From: Chloroflexota bacterium
Lineage (GTDB): Bacteria; Chloroflexota; Anaerolineae; B4-G1; SLSP01
Reading direction: 5' to 3'
NCBI GenBank assembly: GCA_019873645.1
Contig: JAIOAX010000007.1
Span: 90,944-154,943, forward strand
DNA length: 64,000 nt
Positions within the stretch are counted from its first letter, which is position 1. Each line of letters starts with the position of its first letter. The notes under the pieces were generated by a model. That model was not told the origin of the DNA. It searched no databases and was given only the letters and a program-made list of their open reading frames with translations. A program made the position numbers and the translations under genes. This document shows positions 3,443 through 61,404 of the stretch, piece after piece.

Positions 3443-3476
3443 ACGCCAGGCCGTTACGTACCGGGCAGGTGCAGCG

Positions 3477-3929
3477 ATGCGGTGGAAGTTGAATCCCATA
3501 GCGGATTGTATAGCTGTGCGCGACGCGGTAGCGCGTTTGTTGCACGACTCCCGCTTTACACCAGCGCGCGTGCTGCGTGTTTTTCGACGTGAGACGGAGG
3601 CGCAGGTCAGTTTGCCGGTAGATGTGTATATAACGGCAGAGGATATTGTGGTCATGGCGGCAGTTCCGGGCCTCAAGCCGCGTGACCTGGAGATTAAAAT
3701 CGAAGGCGATTGCCTGACGTTGCGCGGCAAATATCCACCCCCGGTGGCGAATGTTGCCTATGCGATGCAGGAATGTCCAACCGGCTATTTCAGCCGTACC
3801 TTGAAACTTAACGTCCCCGTGGATGCCCAACGCGCACAAGCCAGAATTCTGGACGGACAACTTACGGTTGTGTTGCCCAAAATTCAGGCGGCGCAGTCGA
3901 AGGTGGTTCACCTGCGCGTGCAAGCCTGA
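3477..3929 (+). CDS. Hsp20/alpha-crystallin small heat shock protein
   Basis: The track ORF starts at a GTG inside the metallopeptidase gene; the ATG at 3477 behind AGGTG gives MRWKLNPIAD, typical for this family, and a usual length of 150 residues. The alpha-crystallin domain (about residues 40-145) has the VPGLKPRDLEIKIEGD strand region, the short loop around LRGKYPPP, and the strand pair SRTLKLNVPVDA. These ATP-independent holdases bind unfolding proteins and form oligomers. The classic C-terminal IxI anchor is weak (VVLPKIQ). A clear hairpin terminator follows after about 30 bases. No CIRCE-like inverted repeat was seen upstream. Confidence 0.9.
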   Translation: MRWKLNPIADCIAVRDAVARLLHDSRFTPARVLRVFRRETEAQVSLPVDVYITAEDIVVMAAVPGLKPRDLEIKIEGDCLTLRGKYPPPVANVAYAMQECPTGYFSRTLKLNVPVDAQRAQARILDGQLTVVLPKIQAAQSKVVHLRVQA

Positions 3930-11975: not shown

Positions 11976-12036
11976 GTAGTTGGGAATAATGGTTATGAAA
12001 TTATTTGTATGCGCAGCAGGGGATGGAGGCGTAATA

Positions 12037-36340: not shown

Positions 36341-37764
36341 ACCTTCGTGCGCGTCTACCGATCGCGCTGCTGGCCGGAGGGCTGGCCTTGCTGGTATACG
36401 AGTTGACGCTGGCGCCATCGCTCACCTGGGCGCATTGGGGCGGGGACGGCGGCGATTTCATCACGGCAGCGGTCACCGGGCGGATGCCGCATCCACCGGG
36501 ATTTCCGCTTTATCTGGCGTTGGCGCGTCTCTGGGTGCTTCTTCCCCTCCGCAATCCGGCCTGGCGGCTCAACCTGCTCTCGGCGCTGATGGCGGCCGGG
36601 GCGGTCACATTGACCGCGTTTGCCCTTCAACGTCGGGAAAAATCTCCGTGGATCGTACTTGCGGCGTCGCTCACCCTGGCGTTTGCCCCGTTGTTCTGGT
36701 CGCAGGCGCTCATCACGGAAGTCTACACAACGGCGACGTTCTTTGTGGCGTTGGCGAATTGCGAATTACGAATTACGAATTACGAACCCCCAATCCCTAA
36801 TCCCCAATCCCTAATCTTCAACGGTCTATTGTGTGGCCTGGGGATGTCCGTGCACCCGACATTGGTGTTCCTGATGCCATTGTGGATTATCCATTTGCCA
36901 CGAGATCATAAAGAGAGTATAATTTCCGACTCGCAGTTACATCTTCCCGTCTACTGTCTACCGTCTACCGTCTACCGTCTACTTCTTTTCTTCACTGGCC
37001 TGGGTATCGGCCTGCTCCCCTATGCCCTCTTACCTCTTTTCGGCTCGTGGCCACAGCCGTGGGGCGACCTGCGCACCATCGCCGGGTGGTGGGATGTAGT
37101 GCGTGCGCGGCTGTATTGGGGGTACGCTTTTGGATTGCCATGGGCCGAATGGCCTGCGCGCTTATGGATGTGGGCGCGACTGCTGATCGGACAGTTCTCG
37201 CCGGTGGGGGGGGCACTGGTATTACTTGGCGTCTGGCTCCAACAACGCTCCTGTCGTCGGGAGATACTGGGGTTGGCAGCGGCCGGTGGCTTACTGGCTC
37301 TGTTTGCGCTTGGCTACACTCCGCCGGACGCAATCCTGTATTTGTTGCCGTTACTGCCGTTCTTTATTCCCTGGCTCGCCGTGGGGCTGCGTTGGCTGGT
37401 GCACAAAGGTTTGCCTGCCTGGGCGACGCTGGCCTTGCCGTTGTCACTGCTTGTATGGAACTGGCAGTCCCTGGATTTGCGTCGCGACGCTGAAGCGGTT
37501 TTGTGGTACAATCGTGTTCTGGATGCGGCGCCAGCGGATGCCGTTTTGTTGACGCAGAACGGCGCGCACACCTTTGCGTTGTGGTATGCGCAGGAAGCGG
37601 CGGGACTGCGACAGGATGTGTTAGTTATAGACCGGAATTTGTGGAATCAGGAAAGTTACCGGCAGTTTTTATATCGGCAGATGGGACGCGCGGGCGTTGC
37701 GCCGGAGGATTTGGCGGCGAGTCGGCCTGTGTGTTATGTTGAGGAGGGGATAACGTGTCCATAG
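36337..37764 (+). CDS. DUF2723 membrane protein (GT-C-like), carrying in-frame heptanucleotide repeats
   Basis: A 475-residue polytopic membrane protein. The N-terminus with LTLAPSLTWAHWGGDGGDFITAA and GRMPHPPGFPLYL is the DUF2723 signature; this family belongs to the GT-C superfamily related to protein O-mannosyltransferases, with the Asp of GGDGGD as likely catalytic residue. It probably transfers a sugar from a lipid donor outside the membrane. Two stretches are foreign to the family: residues about 140-160 (CELRITNYEPPIPNPQSLI) and about 195-216, encoded by tandem GAATTAC, CCCCAAT/CCCTAAT and CCGTCTA heptads. They lie in loops between hydrophobic helices and keep the frame open. It overlaps the DUF4012 gene by 10 bases. 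Confidence 0.85.
   Translation: MNLRARLPIALLAGGLALLVYELTLAPSLTWAHWGGDGGDFITAAVTGRMPHPPGFPLYLALARLWVLLPLRNPAWRLNLLSALMAAGAVTLTAFALQRREKSPWIVLAASLTLAFAPLFWSQALITEVYTTATFFVALANCELRITNYEPPIPNPQSLIFNGLLCGLGMSVHPTLVFLMPLWIIHLPRDHKESIISDSQLHLPVYCLPSTVYRLLLFFTGLGIGLLPYALLPLFGSWPQPWGDLRTIAGWWDVVRARLYWGYAFGLPWAEWPARLWMWARLLIGQFSPVGGALVLLGVWLQQRSCRREILGLAAAGGLLALFALGYTPPDAILYLLPLLPFFIPWLAVGLRWLVHKGLPAWATLALPLSLLVWNWQSLDLRRDAEAVLWYNRVLDAAPADAVLLTQNGAHTFALWYAQEAAGLRQDVLVIDRNLWNQESYRQFLYRQMGRAGVAPEDLAASRPVCYVEEGITCP
36756..36815 (+). repeat. Heptanucleotide repeats inside a coding sequence (GAATTAC, CCCCAAT/CCCTAAT)
   Basis: Four heptads GAATTGC/GAATTAC (36756-36783) are followed by CCCCAAT, CCCTAAT, CCCCAAT, CCCTAAT (36788-36815). 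Read in the gene frame they give a 7-residue periodic peptide. The CCCTAAT heptads also occur between genes at 2530-2545. Confidence 0.92.
36947..36984 (+). repeat. Heptanucleotide CCGTCTA repeats inside a coding sequence
   Basis: Five tandem heptads: CCGTCTA, CTGTCTA, CCGTCTA, CCGTCTA, CCGTCTA. It is preceded by AGTATAATTTCCG, which resembles AGTATAATCGCCG beside the intergenic CCGTCTA tract at 29062-29092. Confidence 0.92.
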
Positions 37765-40350: not shown

Positions 40351-41604
40351 GTGACGGAACCGATCATCGTTTTTGACCACGTTTCTAAGACCTTCAATCT
40401 GCATAGCAACCGTTCACGTTCGTTTCAAGAAGCACTGATCAACTTGGGACGGCGGCAGCCGCGCGTCCATGATGATTTGCATGCCCTGCGCGATGTCAGC
40501 TTTACCGTTGAGCGTGGGACAACGGTGGGCTTCATCGGTCCAAACGGCGCCGGCAAGAGCACCCTGCTCAAACTCATCGCGCGCATCCTTGAACCTGACG
40601 CCGGTAAAATCACGGTGCTCGGCCGGGTGGGAGCGCTGTTGGAACTCGGCGCGGGTTTCCACCCGGAACTGAGCGGGCGCGAGAACATTTACCTGAACGC
40701 TTCGATTATGGGCTTAAGCCGCCACGAAGTGGACCGGCGCTTCGATGAAATTGTGGCTTTTTCGGAACTGGGACGTTTCATTGATGTGCCGGTGAAACAC
40801 TATTCTTCGGGGATGTATGTACGACTCGGCTTTGCCGTTGCAGTTAATATCGCCCCGGAGATTTTGCTGGTAGATGAAGTCCTGGCGGTGGGGGATGCCG
40901 CGTTTCAGCACAAGTGCACCGACCGCATCGCACAAATGCGGCGCGAAGGCGTGACCATCGTGTGGGTCTCGCACGACCTGGGAACTGTCCAAACCTTGTG
41001 CCATCAAGCGATCTGGTTCAACGAGGGGCGCGTCGCAGCGCACGGCGAAGCTACCGATGTGGTGATGGCCTATCTGTCGCATGTGGCCGAACAAGAGGAG
41101 GCGCGTGCGCATCTTGAGTCGGCATCGCAGGCAGAACAGGCAAAGCAGACGGAACAGGCGGTCCGAAATCGTTGGGGCACGGGGAAGGTCCGCATCACCG
41201 ATGTCAAGCTGTGCGATGGGCAAGGTAATCCGGCGGTCACATTCAGGACCGGGGAGCCGCTGCATATCCATCTGCGTTATCAGGTCGAAGAGCGGGTGGC
41301 CGAACCGGTGTTCGGTCTGGCGATCCATCATCAGAGCGGGACGCACATTTGCGGGCCGAACACCCACTTCGGCGGGTTGGAGATCACAGAAATTAGTGGC
41401 ACAGGCGAGGTCGTCTATACGGTTCCGGCTTTGCCCCTGTTGGAAGGTGCTTATACGGTCTCAGTATCGGCCCACAATCGGATGGACACGGAGATGTTTG
41501 ACTATCACGACCGTCTGTACCCTTTCCGCGTCTATCCGGGCAAGTCGCCGGAACGCTATGGCTTGATGACTTTGAATGGGTATTGGCGGTTGAATGAAGA
41601 CTGA
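40351..41604 (+). CDS. Polysaccharide ABC exporter ATPase, Wzt type
   Basis: A 417-residue ATPase starting at GTG 40351. The nucleotide-binding domain (about 1-245) has Walker A GPNGAGKST (about 63-71), the O-antigen exporter-specific stretch GRVGALLELGAGFHPELSGREN, signature YSSGM, Walker B ILLVDEVLAVGD and the switch histidine in WVSHDL. After an Ala/Glu/Gln-rich linker, residues about 275-415 form a beta-sandwich like the Wzt C-terminal carbohydrate-binding domain, which recognises the capped non-reducing end of the glycan. Its membrane partner (Wzm) is not in the window; the gene may lie elsewhere. It overlaps the next gene by 11 bases. With the methyltransferases downstream, a methyl-terminated, Wzt-recognised glycan is a reasonable inference. 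Confidence 0.9.
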   Translation: MTEPIIVFDHVSKTFNLHSNRSRSFQEALINLGRRQPRVHDDLHALRDVSFTVERGTTVGFIGPNGAGKSTLLKLIARILEPDAGKITVLGRVGALLELGAGFHPELSGRENIYLNASIMGLSRHEVDRRFDEIVAFSELGRFIDVPVKHYSSGMYVRLGFAVAVNIAPEILLVDEVLAVGDAAFQHKCTDRIAQMRREGVTIVWVSHDLGTVQTLCHQAIWFNEGRVAAHGEATDVVMAYLSHVAEQEEARAHLESASQAEQAKQTEQAVRNRWGTGKVRITDVKLCDGQGNPAVTFRTGEPLHIHLRYQVEERVAEPVFGLAIHHQSGTHICGPNTHFGGLEITEISGTGEVVYTVPALPLLEGAYTVSVSAHNRMDTEMFDYHDRLYPFRVYPGKSPERYGLMTLNGYWRLNED

Positions 41605-43936
41605 CAGGCACATCTTAGTCATCAGTCATGACGTCGTCGGTGCTCACATGGCCGGGCCGGGAATCCGCTATTGTGAACTGGCGCGCGTGTTGGCACAGCA
41701 CTTCCGCGTGACTCTGGCCGCCCCCGTTGTGAAAGATGTGACTATAGCGGATGTTGAACTGTGGCCCTACCAGCCTGGCGTATGGGATTCGCTTGCGCCG
41801 GTAGTTTCACGGGCAACAACCCTGGTGCTCTGTGGCGACGTGCTGGCATGGTTTCCGCAGTTCATGCAAGGTGAGACGCCGTTGGTGATAGACGGCTATG
41901 ATCCCCATCCGCTAGAGACATTGGCACTGTTTGCCGGGATGCCGGAGCAAGCGCAGCGGCACCAAGAGCGTGAGCGGATCTTGCAAATGCAATGCCGGGC
42001 CGGTGACTTTTTCATCTGCGCCGGTGAGCGGCAGCGAGATTGGTGGTTGGGATTATTGGAGGCGACGGGACGACTCAATGCCCAGGTCTATAACGCCGAT
42101 CCCTCGCTGCGGCAATTGATTGATGTGGTTCCTTTTGGATTACCTGCTTCACCTCCGCAACATACCAGGACGGTGCTCAAAGGTGTCTGGCCGGGCATTG
42201 CTCCAGATGACAAGGTCATCCTGTGGGGTGGGGGACTGTGGCAGTGGCTTGATCCTCTCACGGCGATCCGGGCAATGGCACGCTTGCGAGAGCAACGCAA
42301 TGATGTGCGGCTGATTTTCCCCGGCACGCGCCACCCCAATACTGCGATCCCCGATATGCCTGTAGTGCGTCAGGCTCGAGAACTTGCCGCAGATTTAGGG
42401 CTTTTGGACAGCCACGTTTTCTTCGGCGATTGGGTGCCTTATGCCGAGTGGCCCAATTACCTGCTGGAAGCGGATGCGGGGGTGTCGCTGCATTTTGATA
42501 CTGTGGAGACACGCCTGGCCTTTCGCAGTCGGGTGTTGGACTACATCTGGGCCGGGCTACCGATGGTGCTCACGGGCGGTGATGCAACCGCCGATTTGGT
42601 GCAGCAGCATGGACTGGGGCAGTTGGTGGATGTTGAGGATGTGGACGGTGTTGTACAAGCGTTGCTTGACATCCTGGCGCAACCGTGCGTGGCCTGGGAA
42701 GTACACTTTGCCACGACGCGGGCGCAGTTGACCTGGGAGCGGGCGGCGGAACCGTTGGTGCGGTTTTGTCAACACCCGCGCCGGATCGCAGATTGTTCTA
42801 CCATGGTGTTCGGCGAGCCAACAGCGACACCGGCGATTCCGGCGGCCGTGCAAACGCGGCTGGAGCAGCAGGAACAGGAAATTGCACGTTTGCGCGCTTT
42901 GGTGGACGGCTATGAGCGCGGGCGATTCATCCGGTTGATGTCTTATTTGCATGGTCTATGGCAGCAATCAATAGGGCGTTTGCTGGTTCAATGGCGAAGG
43001 CGACGGTGGGTTAAGCATTTTCATCAGGCGTTGTGTCATGAACTGGGTACGGTTAGTGATCATGCATTTGTAGATCGTGCTTATTGGCGGATCCTGCGAC
43101 GTGCGCCGGATGCAGCGGGATTTAAACATTATACGGATTTATTAGCCCGTCATCAACTGTCGCGGCGTCAAGTAGTGGCATCTCTTGTGCAATCGGCAGA
43201 ATTCCATGAGGCATTACGGCGAATGTACGGCATTGTTGAACAATTGCATCTCGTGCGTTGCCAGATGATTAAACAATTGCCTCCAGCACAGGATGTGCTG
43301 GATTTAGGAGGAGCAGCTCCGAATTCGATTCAAGGTGCATTATTGGTAATGGGTTATCCTCATCCCCTAAAAACTCTGACCATTGTAGACTTGCCACCGA
43401 TAGATCGGCTTGGGACGTATATATATGGGTCGGATGAGCGACCGGGGGAATGGATAGCGACGGAGGTGGGGCAAATTCGTTATCTTCATACCCGGATGAC
43501 GGATTTGAGAGCTATCCTCTCTTGCAGCATGGATTTGGTTTTCTCTGGTCAAAGCATTGAGCATATCAGCGTATTGGACGCAAAACAAGTGATGCATGAA
43601 GTGTACCGCATCTTACGTCCTGGCGGGCATTTTTGCCTAGATACGCCGAATCGTGCCTTGACCTCAATTCAATCCCCGGACCAATTGATCCATCCTGAAC
43701 ATCAGGTTGAATATCATGTTTCTGAACTTGTGGCTCTGCTGCGAGAGACGGGATTTATTATAGAAAAAGTTAAAGGCATCTGTCCGATGCCGAATACGGT
43801 ACGCACCGGCGTGTTTGATGCGAATGAGATCTTTGCCCACGCTTACCTTTCTGATGAAGCGGAGCAAAGTTATTTATTCTATGTCCAATGTGTAAAACCT
43901 GATGATAGAGAAGATGATAGAGAAAGTGTAAATTGA
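41594..43936 (+). CDS. Three-domain protein: GT4 glycosyltransferase, DUF4214, SAM methyltransferase
   Basis: A 780-residue fusion. Residues 1-385 are a GT-B fold of the GT4 type (MAGPGIRYCELARVLA at the N-terminus; KVILWGGGLWQWLDP and RSRVLDYIWAGLPMVLTGGD in the donor domain). Residues about 473-545 are a DUF4214 domain (FVDRAYWRILRRAPDAAGFKHY...LVQSAEFHEAL). Residues about 560-775 are a class I methyltransferase with DLGGAAPNSIQG as a modified SAM site, MDLVFSGQSIEHI and RILRPGGHFCLDTPN. The pairing suggests a sugar is added and then methylated, perhaps as a chain-terminating cap. Base composition falls from about nt 43000, so the methyltransferase part is more AT-rich than the GT part. The next gene starts in its stop codon (ATGA). 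Confidence 0.85.
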   Translation: MKTDRHILVISHDVVGAHMAGPGIRYCELARVLAQHFRVTLAAPVVKDVTIADVELWPYQPGVWDSLAPVVSRATTLVLCGDVLAWFPQFMQGETPLVIDGYDPHPLETLALFAGMPEQAQRHQERERILQMQCRAGDFFICAGERQRDWWLGLLEATGRLNAQVYNADPSLRQLIDVVPFGLPASPPQHTRTVLKGVWPGIAPDDKVILWGGGLWQWLDPLTAIRAMARLREQRNDVRLIFPGTRHPNTAIPDMPVVRQARELAADLGLLDSHVFFGDWVPYAEWPNYLLEADAGVSLHFDTVETRLAFRSRVLDYIWAGLPMVLTGGDATADLVQQHGLGQLVDVEDVDGVVQALLDILAQPCVAWEVHFATTRAQLTWERAAEPLVRFCQHPRRIADCSTMVFGEPTATPAIPAAVQTRLEQQEQEIARLRALVDGYERGRFIRLMSYLHGLWQQSIGRLLVQWRRRRWVKHFHQALCHELGTVSDHAFVDRAYWRILRRAPDAAGFKHYTDLLARHQLSRRQVVASLVQSAEFHEALRRMYGIVEQLHLVRCQMIKQLPPAQDVLDLGGAAPNSIQGALLVMGYPHPLKTLTIVDLPPIDRLGTYIYGSDERPGEWIATEVGQIRYLHTRMTDLRAILSCSMDLVFSGQSIEHISVLDAKQVMHEVYRILRPGGHFCLDTPNRALTSIQSPDQLIHPEHQVEYHVSELVALLRETGFIIEKVKGICPMPNTVRTGVFDANEIFAHAYLSDEAEQSYLFYVQCVKPDDREDDRESVN

Positions 43937-45309
43937 TGATGAAAGCCTCAATCATCATTTTATCCTGGAATGGAATGTCGTATCTGGGCCCATGTCTCGA
44001 TGCTGTGCTGGCCCAGGACTATCCGGATTTTGAAGTCATCGTTGTAGACAACGGCTCCGCCGATGGCTCGGCGGATTTTGTGGCAACGCGCTATCCACAG
44101 GTGCGCCTGATCCGTAATGCGCGCAACCTGGGCTTTGCCGCCGGGAGCAACATTGGCTTGCGCGCGGCAGCCGGTGAGGTGTTGGTGCTGCTGAATCAGG
44201 ATACGGAAGTGTGCCCGGGATGGCTGGCGGCGCTGGTGACAGCGCTTCAGGATCCTACGATAGGGATTGTGGGCTGTAAACTGCTTTATCCTAACGGGAC
44301 AATCCAGCACGCAGGCGGACGTATTGTAGATAGCCGCGGGTCGGCGCGACATATCGGGCGCGATGAGATAGACGAAGGCCAATATGACGCGATTCAGGAT
44401 GTGGATTTTGTGACGGGGGCTGCGTTGGCCTTAACACGCACGACGTTCGCTTGCATCGGCCCTTTAGATGAGGGATTTATGCCGGCGTATTATGAAGATA
44501 CCGACTGGTGTTACCGAACACGTGAAGCCGGATTGCGTGTCATTTACTGCCCTTCCGCCATGGCGATTCATTATGAATCTGCTTCTTCGGTTACCAGCAG
44601 TTATACACATCAGGTCAACTTTCATAGTGGACGATTGCGGTTTTTATTCAAACATCTAAAGTTGGAAGATTTGTGGGCCTCCTTTGTACCGGCAGAATCT
44701 GAGGGGATACAAAATCTGGGTCCGGGTGGTGAGTTGGAAGCCTTGCGGCAAGCCTGGATGAACCTGTTGTTGTCACTGCCGGATATTCTCGAATTCCGTT
44801 TGCGCTTCATTGAACCGGATATGGACCCACAAATGATGGGCGAATCGCTGTTTCAAATTGCAATGACATTACGTGGACTATGTGCTAAGGAGCAGCCTTT
44901 TTACATACCTCGCGAGCCTTCAGTCGCTGCACAGCCCGAGATCTGGAACTCACAATTGGCCTCTTTGTACCATGAAGGAGAGATTACGCCACAACCTTTT
45001 CGTTCAAGTGTCCCCGTTATAGGACCAGCCATTGTTGCATTTCGTGAGACATGGCTCAGCATGGCGGCGCGATGGTACATACAGCCCTTGATTATGCAGC
45101 AGCGGGTATTTAATGCCCATACGGTGCAGTTGTTGAATCAAATCACCGACAATCTAAATCAAATCGCCGACAATCTAAATCAAATCGCCGACAATAGTGT
45201 ACGTAGTCAGCAGGAAAATGCTCAACATGTGCGAGAGCTGAATACTTTGCTATCTGAACTTCTTCACTTACAGAAGCGGGTCGCCGAACTGGAAGGGCGA
45301 TTATTATAA
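43933..45309 (+). CDS. Family 2 glycosyltransferase with C-terminal coiled coil
   Basis: A 458-residue protein, coupled to the previous gene by ATGA. Residues 1-260 are a GT2 domain of the rhamnosyltransferase-like type: SWNGMSYLGPCLDAV, VVDNGSADGSADF, LLNQDTEVCPGWL (DxD-like), GAALALTRTTF and YYEDTDWCYRTREAGL. The remaining region is helical and ends in a heptad coiled coil containing NQIxDNL three times, encoded by three tandem 21-base repeats. The coiled coil could mediate oligomerisation or complex formation with other transferases of the locus. Sugar specificity cannot be read. Confidence 0.88.
   Translation: MMMKASIIILSWNGMSYLGPCLDAVLAQDYPDFEVIVVDNGSADGSADFVATRYPQVRLIRNARNLGFAAGSNIGLRAAAGEVLVLLNQDTEVCPGWLAALVTALQDPTIGIVGCKLLYPNGTIQHAGGRIVDSRGSARHIGRDEIDEGQYDAIQDVDFVTGAALALTRTTFACIGPLDEGFMPAYYEDTDWCYRTREAGLRVIYCPSAMAIHYESASSVTSSYTHQVNFHSGRLRFLFKHLKLEDLWASFVPAESEGIQNLGPGGELEALRQAWMNLLLSLPDILEFRLRFIEPDMDPQMMGESLFQIAMTLRGLCAKEQPFYIPREPSVAAQPEIWNSQLASLYHEGEITPQPFRSSVPVIGPAIVAFRETWLSMAARWYIQPLIMQQRVFNAHTVQLLNQITDNLNQIADNLNQIADNSVRSQQENAQHVRELNTLLSELLHLQKRVAELEGRLL
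45136..45198 (+). repeat. Three tandem 21-base repeats coding a coiled-coil heptad
   Basis: AATCAAATCRCCGACAATCTA occurs three times head to tail and codes NQI(T/A)DNL, so each DNA unit equals one protein heptad. Confidence 0.93.
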
Positions 45310-51239: not shown

Positions 51240-51707
51240 ATGAGTAATCAAGATGACCTGTGTGATGTCATTGAAGTCCGCACTCCTGATATTGATGCGG
51301 AGGCCATTATGCGCCAGATACGCACCGCTATCCAGGAGCGCCGTGTAGCCTCTGGACTAGAAACGGCAGAGTTTGATGTTTTAGCAAAGGGAGTGCTTGT
51401 ACAACCAACCCTGGCTGACCTGCGCCGTGATTTGGAACGCTTAGCCGAGACCATGCGACATGGTGATATAGAGATGTTCCTCAGCGATGTGCGTCCTTCG
51501 CCTGTCAGGGGTTTGATTCAACGTTTCCGTGCCATTGTGCATAAGGCGATCTTGTTCTACGTCAATCGCCTGGCTGCGCGCCAGGCAATGACCGATCGTC
51601 AGGTACTTTCGACACTCAGGACGGCTTTTCACTTAATTGCAGCCCAGCAGGCGCGCATTGAGGCATTGGAGCGTGCATCTAAGGCAGCAGATGAGACAAC
51701 CGGGTAA
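51240..51707 (+). CDS. Small amphipathic/coiled-coil protein of the glycan locus (PLxG-RQ module)
   Basis: A 155-residue protein; ATG 51240 is preferred over GTG 51234. I know no named family. The N-terminus (IDAEAIMRQIRTAIQERR) is helical. Residues about 83-120 read SPVRGLIQRFRAIVHKAILFYVNRLAARQAM, a strongly amphipathic helix pair that aligns with three copies in the next protein and one in the protein at 59414. The C-terminus (IAAQQARIEALERA) is a coiled coil. There is no signal peptide and no clear full membrane helix, so peripheral membrane association on the cytoplasmic side is likely. Its position between paralogous glycosyltransferases suggests a scaffold or chain-length role; this is inference. 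Confidence 0.75.
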   Translation: MSNQDDLCDVIEVRTPDIDAEAIMRQIRTAIQERRVASGLETAEFDVLAKGVLVQPTLADLRRDLERLAETMRHGDIEMFLSDVRPSPVRGLIQRFRAIVHKAILFYVNRLAARQAMTDRQVLSTLRTAFHLIAAQQARIEALERASKAADETTG

Positions 51708-51732
51708 CATCAGTGATATGATCTGAGAGGAT

Positions 51733-52893
51733 ATGCTAAACCTCTGGACCCCCTCAGAACAAGCCTATATCGCCCGCCTCTACGCCCTGGCGGATGTGAC
51801 CGACCGGGCGTACGCGGTGCGCTCCATGATCCCATTGCTTGGTCCCCTGGTCGTCTGGCTGCGACGTAACCTGACTACCCATCTGCGTGAAGCCTATTTT
51901 GACCCTATCGTAGAACGGCAAGTTCTGTTCAACCGCAAGCTGGCCGATGCGTTGTGCGCCGCCTGGCAATTTCTCAAGGAACGGGCAGTTGATGAAGGGA
52001 ATCATTTCGTTGCTCCTGAAGTACAACGCAGTGCGGCGGCGCGTGAGCTGCTGGAACAGGCGACCATGGCTGCCGCAGCGATGACGGTGTTCAATGCCCT
52101 GTTGTGGGCCGGGCCTTTGCCGGAGTATGGTGAATGTCTGGGAAAGGCGTTTTATCAAGCTTTGTATGCTGCCAGTCTGGCAAGTATGTCTCCGGTGAGT
52201 GAGACTCAAAAAAAGGCGAACCTGCAATTGTTGGAAAACATCCGGCAGTTGGCTCAAAAGATAGAGGCCCGGCCACGCTGGATGGCAAAATTCTACACCG
52301 AATCTCTCGTCCCCGATGTGATGCTCCGGGATTATCGGGTCCATTCATCCAAGCGGTTTATCGGCCCATTGATTGGCTGGTTGCGTTGTCGCCTGACTGC
52401 ACATTTGAAGGAAGCCTACCTTGACCCGACTTTGGAGCGCCAGGTTACATTCAATCGGCGGTTTCAAGCTGCATTGCACGATGCGACCGCACTTGAACGG
52501 GCCTCTGTGACCCGGTTGCGAGTTGCCGCCGACACGGTGGTTTGCCCCTATCGTGTATGTTCTTCGGTTCCCTTGCTCGGTCTGCTCATCGTCTGGCTGC
52601 GCCGTTGGTTGACCGCGCATATAGATGTACCTTACATAATCCCTATCCTTGAACGGCAGGCTGCGTTTAACCGCACCGCCGTCGAAGTCCTGGCGTTGAT
52701 TCAGCAACAGGCGGCCGACTTGCGCGGCTGCGAATCCGCTGTCGGTTCTTTGTTTGAACTGGCGTATGATCTGGCAGAATTGCAGGCGCGGGTAGAGTCG
52801 CTGACTCAAACGGCAGATGCGCAAGAGGAATTCAACACGTTGGTTGGGGAGCTGGTTTCCCGGATGCAAACCTGGATTGCGGAGGTCGGGTGA
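51733..52893 (+). CDS. Protein with three copies of the PLxG-RQ amphipathic module
   Basis: A 386-residue protein of no named family that I know. It contains three copies of one module, at about residues 28-70, 202-246 and 274-319. Each starts Y-x-V-x-S, then (I/V)PLLGPLVVWLRR..LT.HL.EAY.DP..ERQ..FNR or close variants. The copies differ at many positions, so the triplication is not recent. Regions between them are helical; the end (VESLTQTADAQEEFNTLV) is a coiled coil. The hydrophobic LLGPLVVWL segments are too short to span a membrane alone and may form in-plane or re-entrant helices. The next glycosyltransferase starts within its stop codon, indicating coupled expression. Confidence 0.75.
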   Translation: MLNLWTPSEQAYIARLYALADVTDRAYAVRSMIPLLGPLVVWLRRNLTTHLREAYFDPIVERQVLFNRKLADALCAAWQFLKERAVDEGNHFVAPEVQRSAAARELLEQATMAAAAMTVFNALLWAGPLPEYGECLGKAFYQALYAASLASMSPVSETQKKANLQLLENIRQLAQKIEARPRWMAKFYTESLVPDVMLRDYRVHSSKRFIGPLIGWLRCRLTAHLKEAYLDPTLERQVTFNRRFQAALHDATALERASVTRLRVAADTVVCPYRVCSSVPLLGLLIVWLRRWLTAHIDVPYIIPILERQAAFNRTAVEVLALIQQQAADLRGCESAVGSLFELAYDLAELQARVESLTQTADAQEEFNTLVGELVSRMQTWIAEVG

Positions 52894-53963
52894 TGCTGAC
52901 GCGCCTGTGCCAGTTTGCCCCGGCCATCAACCGGGGCGATGCGATGAGCCGTCAGGCCATCGAGATGCATCGCGCCGCCGAGTCTCTGGGTGTGACGGCG
53001 GCGCTGTTTGAATTTGGGCAAGGGGATGATCGCTCTGTTCCGGTGCAACTGTACACGGACTACCGGTCGCGTCCGGGTGACGTGATCATATTGCATTACG
53101 GCGGACGGCGGCATTATGAGGATTGGGTTGCACGCTTGCCGGGGCGCGTTTTTATCTACTCCCACAATGTTACCCCACCTCACTTTTATGAACGCATTGG
53201 CTTCCCCTGGGGCGAAGCGCTCTATCGTGGGCGTGATACATTGGCGGCCCTGGCGCATTTAGGCGGCCTGGCGGTCTCTGAATACAATCGCCGCGACATG
53301 CTGCGCGCGGGTTTTCGGGAAGTGACCGTTCTGCCGCTCATCCTGGACTTCGACACGCTACTTGCGGCGTCGCACACCGCTGAGGCGCAGGCCATCGTGG
53401 CACAATACCGGCAAGTGGGGACAATGAACTGGCTGCACGTGGGACGACTGGCGCCGAACAAACGCATCGAAGATATTGTGCGCGCCTTTTACGTTTATCA
53501 TACAACGCTCAACCCCAACTCGCGCTTGTTTCTGGTTGGCTCGGACAAGGACATGGAAGGCTACACACAACCGTTGCGGCGCTGGGTCGAAGCCCTGGGC
53601 ATTGCATCGGCCGTCATCTTCACCGGACGGGTGAGTGATGCTGAACTGGGCGGCTATTACGCATTGGCCGACCTGTATGTGTGCTTGAGCGCCCATGAAG
53701 GCTTCTGCATTCCGCTGGTTGAGGCGATGTTGCATCGTGTGCCCGTCATTGCGCTGCGTGGCACGGCGGTCACCGAGACGATGGGGCCTGCCGGCATTCT
53801 GGTGGATACACCGGACCCACGATTGATTGCACAAATTGCATATTTGTTGTACGATGATTCCAGGTATCGAGAAGCTATCATCGCCGGGCAGTTAACGCAG
53901 GCGCAGGTATGGCGCCCGGAATGCGCGCTTGAAGCGTTTTGGAAGTGGATACGAGAGCAATAG
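52893..53963 (+). CDS. GT4 family glycosyltransferase, paralog of the one at 50133
   Basis: ATG 52893 lies seven bases after GGAGG and overlaps the preceding TGA; the track start at GTG 52890 is one codon earlier. The 356-residue GT-B protein has the acceptor-side LCQFAPAINRGDAMSRQAIE and YSHNVTPPHFY, and the donor-side MNWLHVGRLAPNKRIEDIV, LVGSDKDMEGY and AHEGFCIPLVEAMLHRVPVI. It shares order and many motifs with the transferase at 50133-51206. GC content is back to the level of the surrounding genome here. A truncated gene follows in the same frame after the stop. Confidence 0.9.
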   Translation: MLTRLCQFAPAINRGDAMSRQAIEMHRAAESLGVTAALFEFGQGDDRSVPVQLYTDYRSRPGDVIILHYGGRRHYEDWVARLPGRVFIYSHNVTPPHFYERIGFPWGEALYRGRDTLAALAHLGGLAVSEYNRRDMLRAGFREVTVLPLILDFDTLLAASHTAEAQAIVAQYRQVGTMNWLHVGRLAPNKRIEDIVRAFYVYHTTLNPNSRLFLVGSDKDMEGYTQPLRRWVEALGIASAVIFTGRVSDAELGGYYALADLYVCLSAHEGFCIPLVEAMLHRVPVIALRGTAVTETMGPAGILVDTPDPRLIAQIAYLLYDDSRYREAIIAGQLTQAQVWRPECALEAFWKWIREQ

Positions 53964-53999
53964 AAATTACTAGAAGATGACAGATCCGGCGCCAGGTTA

Positions 54000-54764
54000 T
54001 TGGAGTACGATCATGATAATGAACAAAACTATTGCCCCTCTTCTGAGAAGCTTGCCTCTGGGACTAATGCTCACCGGATTACTCTTCCTGATGATGGCGA
54101 TGATGGTTACAGTTACTGGCGTATTCCTATGCCGTTTGGCTTTTTGCGTGTTGTGCCAGGTTTTGGCAGCTTGCGAGCCCCGGGGCGATTATGGCAAATT
54201 GGACTCTTTGCCATTTCTATAATAAGTGGTGTAACAATATGGCGGCTGTTGGAACAGTTCAACTCCAAGGTCGCGGCTTTGCTTTGCATGGGCGTGGGGG
54301 TGGCGGTTGTTTCTTGCTTACGAGCTAGCCCGTCTCAATCTGCGGCGACGGTGTTGATCCCACCAGTATGTCCCTGGATGCACGAAACATTGCCGGCCGA
54401 TGCAGTGTTATTACATGCACCCTGGGTGCTAGAGGGTAAAGTGGAAGATGGCATCTTTGTATGGCCGGATGCGGAGAAGATGTTTTGTGCCATCTATCAT
54501 CGGAGGAAAATCGTTAATGGTTCATTGGCTTATATGCCGCCGGAACAACAAGCCCTTCAACAGTGTTTGGTACATTTCCCAAGTGAGCAGGCCATGGATT
54601 GTGTGCATAGAGTAGGGATAACGCATATTTTGATAGATCGCAAGGATATTCCTGGAGATTTGAGCCGCCAGCTTAATGATCCAGGTGAATTACTCAGATT
54701 GGGGCTTGTAGAGTTGTATCGTGACGGGACACATATACTCTATTCTGTAAGCAAAGAAATGTGA
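54000..54764 (+). pseudogene. 5'-truncated remnant of a large membrane protein (GT39/YfhO-like C-terminus)
   Basis: A 254-residue frame opening at TTG 54000 with no good ribosome binding site. From about residue 40 it reads WRIPMPFGFLRVVPGFGSLRAPGRLWQIGLF, the VPGF.S.R.P.R motif found two-thirds along large polytopic glycosyltransferase-like membrane proteins. One or two hydrophobic helices and an extracytoplasmic-type domain (about 110-254) ending ITHILIDRKDIPGDLSRQL follow, as in the C-terminal part of such proteins. The expected 350-450 N-terminal residues are absent. The frame is open back to the stop of the preceding GT gene, which would fit a deletion joint. A second short frame (53977-54222) encodes a hydrophobic stretch that may be scrambled N-terminal sequence. 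It could alternatively be a shortened functional protein. Confidence 0.5.
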
Positions 54765-54786
54765 TGAAATGTCAAGGAGGTTCCTT

Positions 54787-57030
54787 ATGACAACTTACCT
54801 GTATGCTAGTTATCGCCGTAAAATCTTGATAGTTGTGTTGATCTTCATGGTGTTGATAAGTTGGATTGAACCATCTGGAGTCATAGCTCAACCAACTGCG
54901 GGGATAATCCGCGTGGCGCCGACCGGTACCGATACGTCCGGCTGTGGTTCTGAGAGCACACCATGCCGGACGATCCAGTATGCGGTCAATGCTGCCGCCT
55001 CCGGCGATACGATCAAGATTGCGCAGGGCACATATACCGGTTCCGGAGGGGCAGTGGTCAGCATTAAGAAAAGCCTTACGCTTATCGGTGGGTATACTAC
55101 CTCGAATTGGGACACCCCCTCGACCGATCCGGCGTTGACGATCATTGATGGCGAGCATGTTCGACGTGGCGTCGAAATCAGCGATGTGGTCGGCAATGTC
55201 AGTATTGCGTTTCAGGGCCTGACGATCCGCAATGGCTTTAACGACAAGACGCTGGCAGGCGGAGAATTTATCGGCGGGGGAATGTTGTGCCGGAGCGGCG
55301 ATGCAGGTAAGACGGTTACCCTGTCTCTCACGTCGGTGAAGTTTGAAAATAATCAGGTACAGGGGACGACCAATGGCCCGGCAGGCGGCGGCGGGGCCGG
55401 TTTTTACGAGAAATGCCCGGTCACGATGCAGCAAGTGACCTTTAGCGGCAATCAGGTGATCGCCGGGGATGCTACCAATAATACACGCGGCGGACAGGCC
55501 TTGGGCGGCGGCTTTTTTGCTACCAACGGAAGCCACATTACGGCCAACACGATTGTCCTGGTCAATAACACGGCTCGAGCCGGTTCTGGGGGGCAAGGTT
55601 ACCTGAACGATACATGGAATCGCGCCGATGCTCTGGGTGGTGGCGCGGCAATGCAGTATAACAATGTCAACATTGTGGGAATTACGGCGACAAATAATCA
55701 AGCCGTCGCAGGCAGTGGCTCTGCGTATGGCGGTTTTGCCTGTGGGGGGGCGCTTTTCTTTGAGCACAACACCGGCACGGTCGCTATCAGCGACGGCGTA
55801 TTGAGCGGCAACCAGGTGACCGGCGGTGCATCTACTTCTGAAGGCGGCGCCAGCTCCGGCGGCGCGATCATGTCGACAGATAGCGTGTTGTCTTTGGAAC
55901 GTTTAACCATCGTCAACAATTCCAGCATCGGCGGCGCCGGCAGTGACGGCGGCGATGCTGGCGGCGGTGCGCTCTATTTCACCCGTGCTGTGAGTCCCTG
56001 GGGCGCCCCCAGTACTGTGACCGGCGTCAACCTCATCATCGCCGATAATGTAGCCGAGGCCGGCGCCGGCGCGAATCGCTGGGGCGGCGGCGGCGGCATC
56101 TTCAGCCAGAATACCGATTTGACGCTGTATCACGCGACGTTTTCTGGCAACCGGGTGTTGGATTCGATGCAGGCGCCGGCCCTGATCGCGCTCAATTATG
56201 CCGGCACAGATATAGGCTGGAGTACAGCACGTTTGTATTACTCTATTATTGCCAATCACACGCCAGCTTCTTTCAGTTATGCTGCGATGGCGCTCAGCTC
56301 CGGGGATACGTTGCAGATGAACTATACGCTGTTCTATAACAACGGTGGGCGCAATTACGGCGGCAGCGGCTCCATCTCCAATAATAACGAAGTCCCAAGC
56401 GGCAATCCGGCGTTTGTCAGCCCGGGCGCGCCTAATTATAACTATCACATCACCTACAGTTCCGCGGCCCGTGATCGAGCCATTGGCAGCAGCACAACAC
56501 TCGATATTGACAAGGATGCTCGCCCCATCGGCGCTGCTTCGGACGTCGGTGCCGACGAGTACGTTTTACACAATGCGCACCTTGTGGTATCGGCATTTAA
56601 TACGCCGACCAATATCGTCGCTGGTGGCAGCACCTCGCATACGGTGGTGCATCGGATCGTCGTGCAGAATACCGGCGATATTGCGGCTACGACGGCTACC
56701 TTGACCGAGCAATTGTCCACGCCTTCCGCGCCGCTCTCGATGAATGTTTCATCTGGGCCGACATGTACCAGCGGAACCTGCAATTACAATGCCACTACGC
56801 GCCGAATAACCTGGTCAGGCAGTGTGCCCAGCGGCGGCTCCGTGACCATCACTTACGACCTGCTGGTCAATGTCCCCACCGACTACACGGCCTCCACCGC
56901 GATTCCCTCCACCCTCAATTACAGTTTTGCGGACAATGAAGGTGGCTCTGGGAACGGTACACTGGTATCTTCAGTTTTTATCAATGCCAGGCAGGTATAT
57001 TTGCCGCTTGTTGCCAGGCTCAATGAATGA
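54787..57030 (+). CDS. Secreted right-handed parallel beta-helix protein with LPLV tail
   Basis: The start is ATG 54787 after AAGGAGG; the track ATG at 54769 lies before that site. The 747-residue protein has a signal peptide (RKILIVVLIFMVLISWI, cleavage near VIAQ), then CRTIQYAVNAAASGDTIKIAQGTY, the typical opening of DUF1565/pectate-lyase-like and choice-of-anchor-Q beta-helix proteins. Residues about 60-590 carry Gly/Asn-rich rungs (repeats of GGGxxF, NNTxxxGSGG, SGNQV). A DUF11-like immunoglobulin-type domain (about 610-735) precedes the tail VYLPLVARLNE. No catalytic residues are apparent. It is probably a surface adhesin or structural protein exported next to the glycan machinery. The next gene starts inside its 3' end. 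Confidence 0.82.
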   Translation: MTTYLYASYRRKILIVVLIFMVLISWIEPSGVIAQPTAGIIRVAPTGTDTSGCGSESTPCRTIQYAVNAAASGDTIKIAQGTYTGSGGAVVSIKKSLTLIGGYTTSNWDTPSTDPALTIIDGEHVRRGVEISDVVGNVSIAFQGLTIRNGFNDKTLAGGEFIGGGMLCRSGDAGKTVTLSLTSVKFENNQVQGTTNGPAGGGGAGFYEKCPVTMQQVTFSGNQVIAGDATNNTRGGQALGGGFFATNGSHITANTIVLVNNTARAGSGGQGYLNDTWNRADALGGGAAMQYNNVNIVGITATNNQAVAGSGSAYGGFACGGALFFEHNTGTVAISDGVLSGNQVTGGASTSEGGASSGGAIMSTDSVLSLERLTIVNNSSIGGAGSDGGDAGGGALYFTRAVSPWGAPSTVTGVNLIIADNVAEAGAGANRWGGGGGIFSQNTDLTLYHATFSGNRVLDSMQAPALIALNYAGTDIGWSTARLYYSIIANHTPASFSYAAMALSSGDTLQMNYTLFYNNGGRNYGGSGSISNNNEVPSGNPAFVSPGAPNYNYHITYSSAARDRAIGSSTTLDIDKDARPIGAASDVGADEYVLHNAHLVVSAFNTPTNIVAGGSTSHTVVHRIVVQNTGDIAATTATLTEQLSTPSAPLSMNVSSGPTCTSGTCNYNATTRRITWSGSVPSGGSVTITYDLLVNVPTDYTASTAIPSTLNYSFADNEGGSGNGTLVSSVFINARQVYLPLVARLNE

Positions 57031-59320
57031 ACCTTTGACTTTTTCCGTAATCGTCAACACGACCGATCGCGCCGGGCCGTTGCGCACGCTCTTGCGAGCT
57101 TTGGAGCAGCAATCCTATCCACATTTTGAGGTTGTGGTTGTCGTAGGGCCGACCCGCGACAATACGCTGGAAGTGCTGGATGAGTACGCCGGACGGGTGC
57201 GTGTGTTGCGCTGCGCGCACGCCAATCTAAGTGAATCGCGCAACATCGGCTTGCTGGCGGCGCGTGGCGACCTGGTGGCCTATATTGACGATGACGCGGT
57301 CCCGTGTTATCACTGGCTGGCGCACCTTGCGCGCCTGTTTGCCGATCCGCATATAGACGCGACCGGCGGCGTCGTCTATATGATTCATCCCCAGGAAACC
57401 GCCATTCAACATCGGATTGGCTTGATGTCGTCTATGTTTGAGCATTATGACGTGCGCGCTTCGTGGTTGGAACACCTCACTCCGACGGGCTTTGGATCGC
57501 AATGGGCGGCACGGATGATGGGGACGAACATGGCTTTCCGACGCCGGCCATTGCTGGATGTGGGCGGCTTCGATGAGTTCTACGTTTACATCGGAGAAGA
57601 GACGGATGTGATGTTGCGTATGCTCAATGCCGGTTACACCGTACATCCTGTCAAAGAATCGGCTGTTTACCATGCGCCGGCTTCCAGTCGTAACCGAACG
57701 ATGTTCAGTGCTTATGGCCGTTGGTGGATGCAAACCCGTTCCGGGACGTATTTTACCATCAAAAACGGTCGCCATGCGGGCGAACCGGCCGGGCGTATCC
57801 TGGTGCGTTGCCTGCAACTGGCGCACGGCCATTGGATGGCTTACGGACAGTCGCGGCGTGAGCGCAAAATCACCTTTGCGCAGCTCTGGCGGATGCGGTT
57901 TGGGGAACTCTATGCCATTATTGTCGGCGCGCTCCACGGTTTGTACGCGCCACGCCGGCTCATTGATGAGAAAACGAGGGCATCAGCTATGCAGGTATCT
58001 GAACCGATTTTGCCTTTCCAAAACGCGGCATCAGCTTTCCAGGGCGCAGTGGATCCGATCGGCGGACGGCAGCCGGTGCATGCGTTGCCTGATCCGCCGT
58101 TGCGCCTGTGTCTGCTGAGCGGCTCGTATCCGCCGGAGCAGTATGATGGGGTGGGGCGGCTGACTCATCTGATGGCGCAGGGGTTGCACGAATGTGGGCA
58201 TACCGTCCATGTCATTGCGCGCGGTGATAGGGAGACCGTCGCGTTTTACGATGGCGCTTACGTCCATCGCATTCCCTATCAGACAGAACGTTACAGCCTT
58301 TACCGGGGTTTCCCCAACCTGTTTCACACCTTAAATTACAGCCACGCCGTTTACGATAAGGTGCGTCGTCTGCTGCTGAACGACGGCATTCAGATCGTGG
58401 ATTCTCCTATCTGGCAATTCGAGGGGTTGGTGACGGCGGTAAGCGGCAGTGTGCCGACGGTTGTGCGCCTGGTGACGGCTGCGCCACAGGTAGCGCGCAT
58501 CCATGCCGATGACAGCGAGGACCCACACCTGATGGCGGAGATGGAGCGTGCGTTGATCGCACGGGCGCACCACGTGTTGCCCAATACGGCGGCCACCCTT
58601 GCCGCCGCGCGCGATTTGTACGGTGCAGATTTGCTCGATGGTCGTGCCACCATTGTCCCTTACGGCATTGTCCCCGTGCCGGACGAGAACATTTGCCCGT
58701 TTGATGTGCAACGACCCCCAGAGCATTTCACAGTGCTGTTCGTGGGGCGGTTGGAAAAGCGTAAGGGAATTATGGACCTGTTTGAGGCCATCCCTTTGGT
58801 GTTGAAGAAACAACCTAACGTGAAATTTATCATTGCCGGACAGGACAACAGCCACAGCGACGGTTTTCAGCGTCGGACGGGGCAGAGCTATCCGGCATAC
58901 TTCGCCGAACATTTTCGCCGTTATACCGATCACGTTGAGTTTACCGGCATGGTCTCCGACGCCGTGTTGCAGTCGCTTTACCGGACGTGTGATGTGTTCG
59001 TAGCGCCGTCGTTGTACGAATCCTTCGGCTTGATTTACCTGGAAGCGATGAATTACGCCAAACCTGTCGTCGCCTGTCATGTCGGCGGCGTGCCGGAAGT
59101 GGTGGAGCATGGCGTGACCGGCTTGTTGACCGATCCCGCGGCGCCCGCGGCGCTGGCCGAAGCCTTGCTCATGTTCTTGCAAACGCCTGCCAGGCTTTAC
59201 GAATTCGGCATGGCCGGCCGACAACGCCTGCTGAAGCAGTTTACTTATATACAGATGGCGCGCAATTTTGAGAAAGTCTACCGCGCCGTGCTCGCACGGT
59301 CGGCCGATGTGTGTTCTTAG
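57023..59320 (+). CDS. Two-domain glycosyltransferase (GT2 then GT4)
   Basis: The track ORF begins inside the preceding gene; the ATG at 57023 overlaps the upstream stop region (ATGAATGA) and starts MNEPLTFSVIVNTTDRAG, a natural GT2 beginning. The 765 residues hold a GT2 domain (about 1-310) with AYIDDDAVPCYHWL (DxD), GTNMAFRRRPLLDVGGFDEF and EETDVMLRMLNAG, a linker, and a GT4 domain (about 360-755) with LCLLSGSYPPEQYDGVGRLTH, VLFVGRLEKRKGIMDLFEAI and ESFGLIYLEAMNYAKPVVAC. Two consecutive transfers in one polypeptide are likely. It is the third multi-domain GT in the locus. GC content is high, like the genome background. Confidence 0.88.
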   Translation: MNEPLTFSVIVNTTDRAGPLRTLLRALEQQSYPHFEVVVVVGPTRDNTLEVLDEYAGRVRVLRCAHANLSESRNIGLLAARGDLVAYIDDDAVPCYHWLAHLARLFADPHIDATGGVVYMIHPQETAIQHRIGLMSSMFEHYDVRASWLEHLTPTGFGSQWAARMMGTNMAFRRRPLLDVGGFDEFYVYIGEETDVMLRMLNAGYTVHPVKESAVYHAPASSRNRTMFSAYGRWWMQTRSGTYFTIKNGRHAGEPAGRILVRCLQLAHGHWMAYGQSRRERKITFAQLWRMRFGELYAIIVGALHGLYAPRRLIDEKTRASAMQVSEPILPFQNAASAFQGAVDPIGGRQPVHALPDPPLRLCLLSGSYPPEQYDGVGRLTHLMAQGLHECGHTVHVIARGDRETVAFYDGAYVHRIPYQTERYSLYRGFPNLFHTLNYSHAVYDKVRRLLLNDGIQIVDSPIWQFEGLVTAVSGSVPTVVRLVTAAPQVARIHADDSEDPHLMAEMERALIARAHHVLPNTAATLAAARDLYGADLLDGRATIVPYGIVPVPDENICPFDVQRPPEHFTVLFVGRLEKRKGIMDLFEAIPLVLKKQPNVKFIIAGQDNSHSDGFQRRTGQSYPAYFAEHFRRYTDHVEFTGMVSDAVLQSLYRTCDVFVAPSLYESFGLIYLEAMNYAKPVVACHVGGVPEVVEHGVTGLLTDPAAPAALAEALLMFLQTPARLYEFGMAGRQRLLKQFTYIQMARNFEKVYRAVLARSADVCS

Positions 59321-59363
59321 TGCCTTACCGGTGATAAAGTACACCATGCGGGCACGAAAATGG

Positions 59364-59397
59364 CCGACTACAAGACTGGCGACTCCATGACTATTTT
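59364..59397. repeat. GACTA-type short repeat before a ribosome binding site
   Basis: GACTACAAGACTGGCGACTCCATGACTATTTTTT leads into AAGGAGTGA of the next gene. It shares CGACTCCATGACTA with the tract upstream of treS (10136-10188). Confidence 0.55.
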
Positions 59398-59413
59398 TTG
59401 AAGGAGTGATACT

Positions 59414-60103
59414 GTGACCCATAAAACGATTCAACCTGATGAGGTATTGCGCAGTATCGAGTTTGAGCTTTTGCAGGGAACGATCTCGCATGATGACCTC
59501 GGCGCCGGCATTCATACGGCGCGGCAATATCAGAACAAGGTGCGCAGCGAACTGATGGGCGCTTCTAAGGACGCGCCTGATATTCGGGAGACGGCAATCC
59601 GGCTTTTCCAGATTAACGAAATGCTGCTCACATTGATTCAGGAGTTAAACGCTGCTTTGCTGGGCGTCCAGGCCGATCTGCACCGGATGCGGCAGACCGC
59701 CGAAGTGACCGCGCAGATGAATGTATCGCCGGTGACTCTTGTACCGGAACCGGCGACGGTGGCATCGGCAGAATCTACTCCAACCCCGCTGCCTGCCGAT
59801 GTACGCCGCGCCATGCGTTCTGAGGCGTTACAGATCGAAATGGATGTTCAGCCTGTGACCATCCCGCTGATCGGCGGTTTGCTGCGACGGCTCAGGTTCA
59901 TGGTGCACGACCTGGTGTTGTTTTACCTGCGCCGCCTGGCCGGCAAACAGGCTGCGGTGAACCAGACCTATGGCGAATGGGTGTTGCATCTTGTCGAAAA
60001 ATCCGAGCGGCAGCAGATTCAGATTGAGATATTGGCGGCGCGGCTGGCTGCTCTGGAGGCCCGTCTGGCCGAATCGGGGCAGGCGGCTGCGGCGCAAGCC
60101 TGA
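59414..60103 (+). CDS. Amphipathic/coiled-coil protein with one PLxG-RQ module
   Basis: A 229-residue protein starting at GTG behind AAGGAGTGA; family not recognised. Residues about 10-95 are helical. A Pro/Ala/Thr-rich linker (about 110-135) leads to the module IPLIGGLLRRLRFMVHDLVLFYLRRLAGKQAAVNQ (about 150-185), which aligns with the single copy at 51240-51707 and the three copies at 51733-52893. A C-terminal coiled coil (ESERQQIQIEILAARLAALEARLAE) ends the protein. No signal peptide. It sits between the GT2-GT4 fusion and two GT4 genes. The same module recurring only beside glycosyltransferases supports a shared structural role in the glycan machine; the function is unknown. Confidence 0.75.
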   Translation: MTHKTIQPDEVLRSIEFELLQGTISHDDLGAGIHTARQYQNKVRSELMGASKDAPDIRETAIRLFQINEMLLTLIQELNAALLGVQADLHRMRQTAEVTAQMNVSPVTLVPEPATVASAESTPTPLPADVRRAMRSEALQIEMDVQPVTIPLIGGLLRRLRFMVHDLVLFYLRRLAGKQAAVNQTYGEWVLHLVEKSERQQIQIEILAARLAALEARLAESGQAAAAQA

Positions 60104-60114
60104 AATGCTGTTCT

Positions 60115-61404
60115 ATGCGTATCTTGCATATCGGCCCTCGCTATTTCCCCGTGCGCGGCGGCGCCGAAATTTATTTTGGCGAAATCTCGAGCTACCTGGC
60201 CGCGCAAGGCCATGCCGTGACTGTGGCGACGACGGATGTTCTGGATTTTGAGGCTTTCTGGGATCCGCGTCGTCGTCGCTTGACAGAGCGTGAGACCAGA
60301 CAGGACGGTGTGCGTATCTTGCGCTTTCCTATGCGTTATCCGCCTTTTCCGGTTGTGGCTTATCCTGCCATCCGCCGTCTGTTGTGGTTGCTCTCGCTGG
60401 CGCACCCACTGCCTGTGGTGTTGGCGGCGCGTCTGGCGCGCTTTACCCCCTGGGTCCCCGATCTGTGGCGTTGGCTGCAAGCCACAGATGAACCCTTTGA
60501 TCTGGTCGCCGGGGTGAATATCTGTTTTGAATCGTTGCTGGAAGCCGGGCTGCTTTTCGCTCGACGCCGCGGCATCCCCTTTGTCATCTATCCGTTGACG
60601 CACCTGGGCGCCGGCCCGCAACCAGGCGATGATGCGCTGAGCCGTTTTTACACCATGCGCCATCAAGTGAATCTGGTGCTGCACAGTGACGCTGTGGTCG
60701 CCCAGACGCCGACCGAACGTGATTTTTACGTAGAACGGGGATTGCCGCTTGAGCGTGTCCTGGTCGCCGGGCCGGGCATTCATCCCCAGACGCTGCTCGG
60801 TGGAGACGCGGTTCGTTTCCGCAGCCGTTATCACATCCCAGAAACAGCAACGTTGGTGCTGGCAATCTCGGCGATGGCGTATGACAAGGGGACGATGCAC
60901 GTGGTTGAAGCTGTGCGGCGGCTGTGGGCGCAGGGACGGGACGTGGAACTGGTGCTCATCGGTGCAGTGTTGACGCCTTTTCGGCATTATCTGGAACGTC
61001 TCCCGGCCGTCGTTCGGGAGCGTCTTCACGTGTTGGGGACGGTAGATGAGGACGAAAAGCGCGACGCGCTGGCAGCAGCCGACATCTTTGCATTGCCCTC
61101 ACGCACAGACTCCTTCGGCATCGTCTATTTGGAAGCGTGGGTATATCGTAAGCCGGTGATCGGCGCCCGTACCTGGGGCATCACCGATGTCATTGCCGAC
61201 GGCGAGGATGGGTATCTGGTGCCTTTCGGCGACGTGGCAGCATTGGCGGAAAAGATTGCCTTTCTGGCCGACCACCCTGAAATACGAACGGCACTGGGAA
61301 CAGGGGGGGCGCAGAAAGTGTACGCCCGACACACCTGGGAGCACAAGCACGCCCTTGTCCAGCGCCTGTACCTCGATCTGGTCAAAACCAAGCCATGCGC
61401 TTAG
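60115..61404 (+). CDS. GT4 family glycosyltransferase
   Basis: A 429-residue GT-B enzyme. It begins MRILHIGPRYFPVRGGAEIYFGEISSYLA with the GGAE loop. The donor domain has ATLVLAISAMAYDKGTMHVVEAV, VLGTVDEDEKRDALAAADIFALPSRTDSFGIVYLEAWVYRKPVI and GVTDVI-like GITDVIADGEDGYLVPFGD, all typical of the WaaG/PimA-type GT4 group. It overlaps the next gene by 10 bases. Slightly longer than average for GT4 (370-400) because of an insertion in the acceptor domain around residues 60-120. Soluble, probably peripheral at the inner membrane. Confidence 0.9.
   Translation: MRILHIGPRYFPVRGGAEIYFGEISSYLAAQGHAVTVATTDVLDFEAFWDPRRRRLTERETRQDGVRILRFPMRYPPFPVVAYPAIRRLLWLLSLAHPLPVVLAARLARFTPWVPDLWRWLQATDEPFDLVAGVNICFESLLEAGLLFARRRGIPFVIYPLTHLGAGPQPGDDALSRFYTMRHQVNLVLHSDAVVAQTPTERDFYVERGLPLERVLVAGPGIHPQTLLGGDAVRFRSRYHIPETATLVLAISAMAYDKGTMHVVEAVRRLWAQGRDVELVLIGAVLTPFRHYLERLPAVVRERLHVLGTVDEDEKRDALAAADIFALPSRTDSFGIVYLEAWVYRKPVIGARTWGITDVIADGEDGYLVPFGDVAALAEKIAFLADHPEIRTALGTGGAQKVYARHTWEHKHALVQRLYLDLVKTKPCA

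Follow-up and report, generated by a model that had tools for sequence, protein, structure and literature searches.

A recurrent, predicted amphipathic helix module on glycosyltransferases, methyltransferases and small stand-alone proteins of Chloroflexota glycan loci

How the separate transferases of a polysaccharide pathway stay together is known for few O-antigens, through coiled-coil scaffolds like WbdD. The window, that is, the whole 64,000-nt stretch of Chloroflexota DNA analysed here, raises this question with a short segment that recurs in proteins encoded among its glycosyltransferase (GT) genes. The original prediction described five such segments in three proteins, all of which are in place; its count nevertheless falls short, since we found six module copies in four proteins, the sixth being at the C-terminus of a GT2 encoded outside the interval that it reported. 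The genes and module copies are as follows.

40351..41604, + strand: Wzt, an ABC ATPase with a C-terminal carbohydrate-binding domain (Pfam Wzt_C E 1.1e-31, ABC_tran E 1.5e-21)
41594..43936, + strand: GT4-DUF4214-methyltransferase fusion (Pfam)
43933..45309, + strand: GT2 with C-terminal module and helical tail (GT2 class from a locally grown profile)
44992..45177, + strand: module copy, alpha type, aa 354-415 of that GT2 (leave-one-out E 5.4e-6; whole-genome profile match E 5.7e-28)
51240..51707, + strand: stand-alone module protein, 155 aa, its module preceded by an N-terminal helix (IDAEAIMRQIRTAIQERR)
51480..51662, + strand: its module copy, gamma type, aa 81-141 (leave-one-out E 1.8e-5)
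51733..52893, + strand: triple-module protein, 386 aa, with a GT4 directly downstream
51808..51993, + strand: its copy A, beta type, aa 26-87 (leave-one-out E 4.5e-16)
52330..52515, + strand: its copy B, beta type, aa 200-261 (leave-one-out E 2.6e-12)
52546..52731, + strand: its copy C, beta type, aa 272-333 (leave-one-out E 2.1e-15)
52890..53963, + strand: GT4 directly after the triple-module protein (Pfam Glycos_transf_1 E 1.4e-23)
59414..60103, + strand: stand-alone module protein, 229 aa, with two GT4 genes 11 bp downstream
59840..60031, + strand: its module copy, gamma type, aa 143-206 (leave-one-out E 6.9e-7)
60115..61404, + strand: GT4 directly after the 59414 module protein (Pfam Glycos_transf_1 E 3.1e-28)

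The copies recognise one another. Leave-one-out profiles, run against every six-frame window ORF of at least 60 aa, recovered each held-out copy (domain E 1.8e-5 to 4.5e-16), well separated from unrelated ORFs, the best of which had a full-sequence E of 0.0095 or worse. A profile search of the whole genome gave no further clear copy outside the six, the next match having E 0.0077. The family is unnamed, as had been supposed: in sequence searches of Pfam, NCBIfam and PDB, the module profile matched no entry and no characterised family.

Wzt heads the window's glycan cluster, and a search beside it for a Wzm permease found none. The starts of the module genes had been described as coupled to those of GT genes. 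The 51240 gene starts 33 bp past a GT4 stop, 51733 starts 25 bp past the stop of 51240, the start of GT4 52890 lies within the end of 51733 (or immediately after it, taking the ATG of the GT4 gene), the distance from a GT2-GT4 gene to 59414 is 93 bp, and GT4 60115 starts 11 bp past 59414; from these spacings, the description is therefore strictly correct for one junction only, the remaining junctions being merely closely spaced. The hydropathy of the N-termini indicates neither a signal peptide, in agreement with the original prediction, nor an N-terminal membrane helix. Inside the cluster we also observed a secreted-looking DUF1565/DUF11 protein (54769-57030) and, between it and GT4 52890, a 254-aa ORF (54000-54764) that has no significant Pfam family and could be what is left of a larger membrane protein. 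A TMEM260-like O-mannosyl-transferase family protein is encoded at 36337-37764 (Pfam E 5.5e-24), and upstream of the glycan cluster lies a repetitive surface-type protein of 3779 aa (11980-23319), a possible glycosylation target.

The module proteins are conserved in relatives. An orthologue of 51240 in the same genus (L100 11528-11983) is 60% identical, and the pair shows purifying selection (dN 0.31, dS about 2.5), as do 59414 (dN 0.39) and 51733 (dN 0.44) against their orthologues, with dS saturated for both. The orthologue of 51733, found in the same order (L011/L147), has at least two copies in a gene truncated by the contig end. The N-terminal region of 59414 also occurs in four relatives, its arrangement of a module gene followed by two GT4 genes recurs at seven loci, and GT2 relatives with a similar tail type were found at five.

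Across 186 domain hits, the module model reads PivGpliarlrralrrllrwYinpiveqQnafNaavvralraL. Its first part follows the pattern P-[IL]-[IV]-G-x-L-[IV]-x-x-[LF]-[RK]-[RK] ... [RW]-[WF]-Y, and the second helix opens with P-[IL]-x-x-x-Q-x-x-x-N. Among 171 distinct copies, 95% have the Gln of column 29, 97% the Asn of column 33, 80% the Tyr and 82% the Pro of column 24, while conserved R/K dominates columns 11, 12, 15, 16 and 19. Hydrophobicity varies along the columns with a period near 100 degrees, and every copy contains a cationic amphipathic stretch, the best 18 residues of each having a net charge of +2 to +4 and the amphipathic moments being moderate (0.25-0.50). Copy C, with a KD19 of 1.83, is hydrophobic enough to be taken for a weak membrane segment. 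In the AF2 model of 51240 (single chain, with 39 relatives), aa 90-154 form one continuous helix with block pLDDT 83-97. The single-chain model of the GT2 is confident for the catalytic domain, up to about aa 320, and continues with a disordered linker of pLDDT < 50, after which the tail is modelled at low confidence (pLDDT about 43-61) as helices 363-419 and 423-457.

Several module types can be told apart. The beta type, LTAHLREPYLDPxxERQ, is found in the triple protein and in GT4 and FkbM fusions; the gamma type, HxLVLFYVNxLAxxQ, is mostly stand-alone; and a third, large group comprises GT2 tails and RWYINPIVEQQN proteins. Stand-alone proteins with two modules, the second reading LRWLINPIVEQQN, are common in Chloroflexales (L085, L093, L104 and L113 among others).

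Beyond the window, the module is C-terminal on GT2, GT4 and FkbM proteins and N-terminal, ahead of a helical spacer, on class-I methyltransferases, each type of fusion being present in at least two genomes; other copies stand alone. Of 101 stand-alone module genes, 87 are followed by a GT as the next same-strand gene and 91 have one on at least one side, compared with 7 of 486 control ORFs (from ten stretches in five genomes of this phylum); a GT is present at 102 of 110 module loci, and GT density near modules is 3.1-5.0 per 20 kb against 0.3 in controls; these counts are approximate because the GT calls came from profiles grown on the window's own proteins, not Pfam, and the ORFs run stop to stop. 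The matches are concentrated in GT loci, and neither finding that the original prediction had named as a refutation, a hit to a characterised domain or a scatter of hits away from glycan loci, was obtained. No early motif common to the GT4s downstream of modules emerged when tested for (9/83 vs 15/165).

Proteins that are fused in one genome and encoded side by side in another are usually physical partners, and such pairing is the step that we infer here for the module proteins and their GT neighbours. That one helix occurs on four enzyme types and also on small proteins encoded next to GTs is most simply explained by a shared element for anchoring and assembly. We think it probable that the module tethers and assembles glycan enzymes, much as WbdD does for O-antigen enzymes in E. 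coli, and that in it an amphipathic helix lying on the membrane runs into a coiled coil; membrane binding, oligomerisation, partner identity and function are our inferences. The first part would be a cationic amphipathic helix on the cytoplasmic face of the membrane, running unbroken into the second helix and then into a coiled coil, with dimers, trimers or mixed bundles expected. A fused module would anchor its GT or methyltransferase and place the enzyme in a bundle with others, and where a stand-alone module gene immediately precedes a GT4 gene, its product would be the detached tether subunit of that GT4. The three copies of 51733 could bridge several partners, so that the window's GT2, the two single-copy proteins and the triple protein would together hold the GTs of this Wzt-type cluster in one membrane complex. 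Points against this reading are the moderate amphipathic moments, the hydrophobicity of copy C, the low confidence of the GT2 tail helices and the lack of a Wzm beside the window's Wzt. That loci carry unlike module types, as a mixed bundle would predict, is no more than a hint (p about 0.04; the 18 loci include related ones). The membrane-skimming scaffold of the original prediction survives in this form to the extent that the predicted long helix, its cationic amphipathic start and the GT2, GT4, FkbM and methyltransferase fusions fit it.

A bolder version, which we put forward only tentatively, is a plug-in tether: a mobile helix in diverging types, fused to the GTs and methyltransferases of a pathway or encoded next to them, whose set would define the members of the bundle and which in methyltransferase fusions would begin a reversed WbdD-like ruler.

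The same helix could instead be a purely oligomerising coiled coil that pairs transferases, its hydrophobic first half buried in the bundle or against a GT and not on the membrane. The continuity of the predicted helix would suit this, and the near-invariant Gln and Asn that open the second helix resemble core-register residues. However, several conserved positions of the first half are basic, and its W-Y pair is one that interfacial helices typically show; we consider a membrane-free coiled coil unlikely.

The strong tendency of stand-alone genes to adjoin a GT could also mean that their products are small subunits with a regulatory or folding role, which activate the neighbouring GT4 like the accessory subunits of some other transferases. 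We give this a small chance: the module is also carried by GT2, GT4, FkbM and methyltransferase proteins, which have no common fold-specific need, and the GT4s downstream of modules are of several kinds, judged by eye on a sample of 14.

The methyltransferase fusions invite comparison with known scaffolds. WbdD of E. coli O9a and K. pneumoniae O3 combines a methyltransferase, a long coiled coil and a membrane amphipathic helix in one protein and is both terminator and scaffold in an ABC-transporter pathway with Wzt, where it recruits the polymerase (PMC11231755, PMC3482155). In K. pneumoniae O12 WbbB and O7 ORF6, a coiled coil links transferase and terminator modules, again in ABC-dependent assembly (PMC11231755). 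All seven distinct module-methyltransferases (L062, L063, L066, L067, L074, L134 and L189) have a Wzt with a carbohydrate-binding domain in the fetched stretch, read from its ORF in L189 and found by search at the other six loci. It is directly upstream in four (L063, L066, L134 and L189), and in L134 an ORF reading like a Wzm permease precedes it. Encoded beside such a Wzt, the methyltransferase fusions resemble WbdD, and the window's cluster has one too. In all seven, however, the order is reversed, with the module N-terminal and the methyltransferase motif C-terminal at a spacing of 93-206 residues. Because the WbdD order of N-terminal methyltransferase and then C-terminal coiled coil was not found, we do not file them as WbdD members. 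Furthermore, Pfam finds no kinase in them, the module has no sequence match to any PDB chain, WbdD structures included, and most module copies are on GTs or stand alone. While WbbB and O7 ORF6 are single polypeptides, here a short common helix is spread across many separate enzymes and small proteins. FkbM (Methyltransf_21) and Methyltransf_23 proteins of glycan loci supply catalytic domains that carry the module in fusions; the models of these families cover the catalytic domain only, and the module is without an entry of its own. The methyltransferase fusions gave no significant match to the short helix motif found at the N-terminus of stand-alone proteins.

By analogy, the module-methyltransferases may work like WbdD. 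The other function proposed originally was that of a chain-length ruler, in which the helix would set the distance between polymerase and terminator; it is plausible only for the combination of module, spacer and methyltransferase beside Wzt. In the window, a Wzt with its binding domain is present, but none of the module proteins bears a methyltransferase, and neither the 41594-43936 methyltransferase fusion (profile E about 1-7) nor the FkbM protein at 49279 (profile search of window ORFs) has a significant module match. We consider a ruler a very unlikely explanation of the module. The linker of the 41594-43936 fusion does contain an amphipathic stretch, module-like at noise level only (E about 1-7).

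Among near relatives, the six-copy profile found the module in 9 of 20 genomes, the window's own counted, often with several matches per contig. Across a phylum-wide sample of Chloroflexota, 55 of 301 genomes have a match of E ≤ 1e-3 to a 27-row profile. A scan of named genomes gave 80 loci, nearly all from Chloroflexota and including Chloroflexus islandicus and Roseiflexus and Oscillochloris species, in a set biased to one module type because the scan pattern was narrower than the 27-row alignment. Of 250 genomes sampled from the phylum to which the single Bacillota record belongs, only 2 match, and a protein on a deltaproteobacterial plasmid has a weak match (domain E 6e-4). The original statement that similar segments occur near methyltransferases in other bacteria is thus borne out for Chloroflexota and two Bacillota genomes, and weakly for one deltaproteobacterium. 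A rhizobial methyltransferase relative has no module match, tblastn of two module N-termini against plasmids gave no matches, and no relatives were found in the viral contigs searched; full-length methyltransferases used as queries matched mainly the methyltransferase domain of other proteins. In a contig labelled Woesearchaeota (L065), we observed a module protein (3218-3652) near-identical to that of a Thermoflexales record (L064); the contig is probably mis-binned. Chance or convergent likeness among cationic amphipathic helices, which the restricted alphabet of helical sequence might favour, has a negligible probability given the leave-one-out recovery, the copies in 55 of 301 genomes, the near-invariant Gln and Asn and the absence of module matches from the ten control stretches.

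Within the libraries and papers searched, the module is new, and so is its reversed, distributed use; we do not claim categorical novelty, because coiled-coil scaffolds of glycan assembly are already known. An unnamed module is present in about a fifth of the sampled genomes of the phylum, and ~90% of its stand-alone genes adjoin a GT. If the tether-and-assembly reading is true, the module would be a sequence handle on the complex membership of transferases, and many 'hypothetical protein' genes beside GTs would become nameable.
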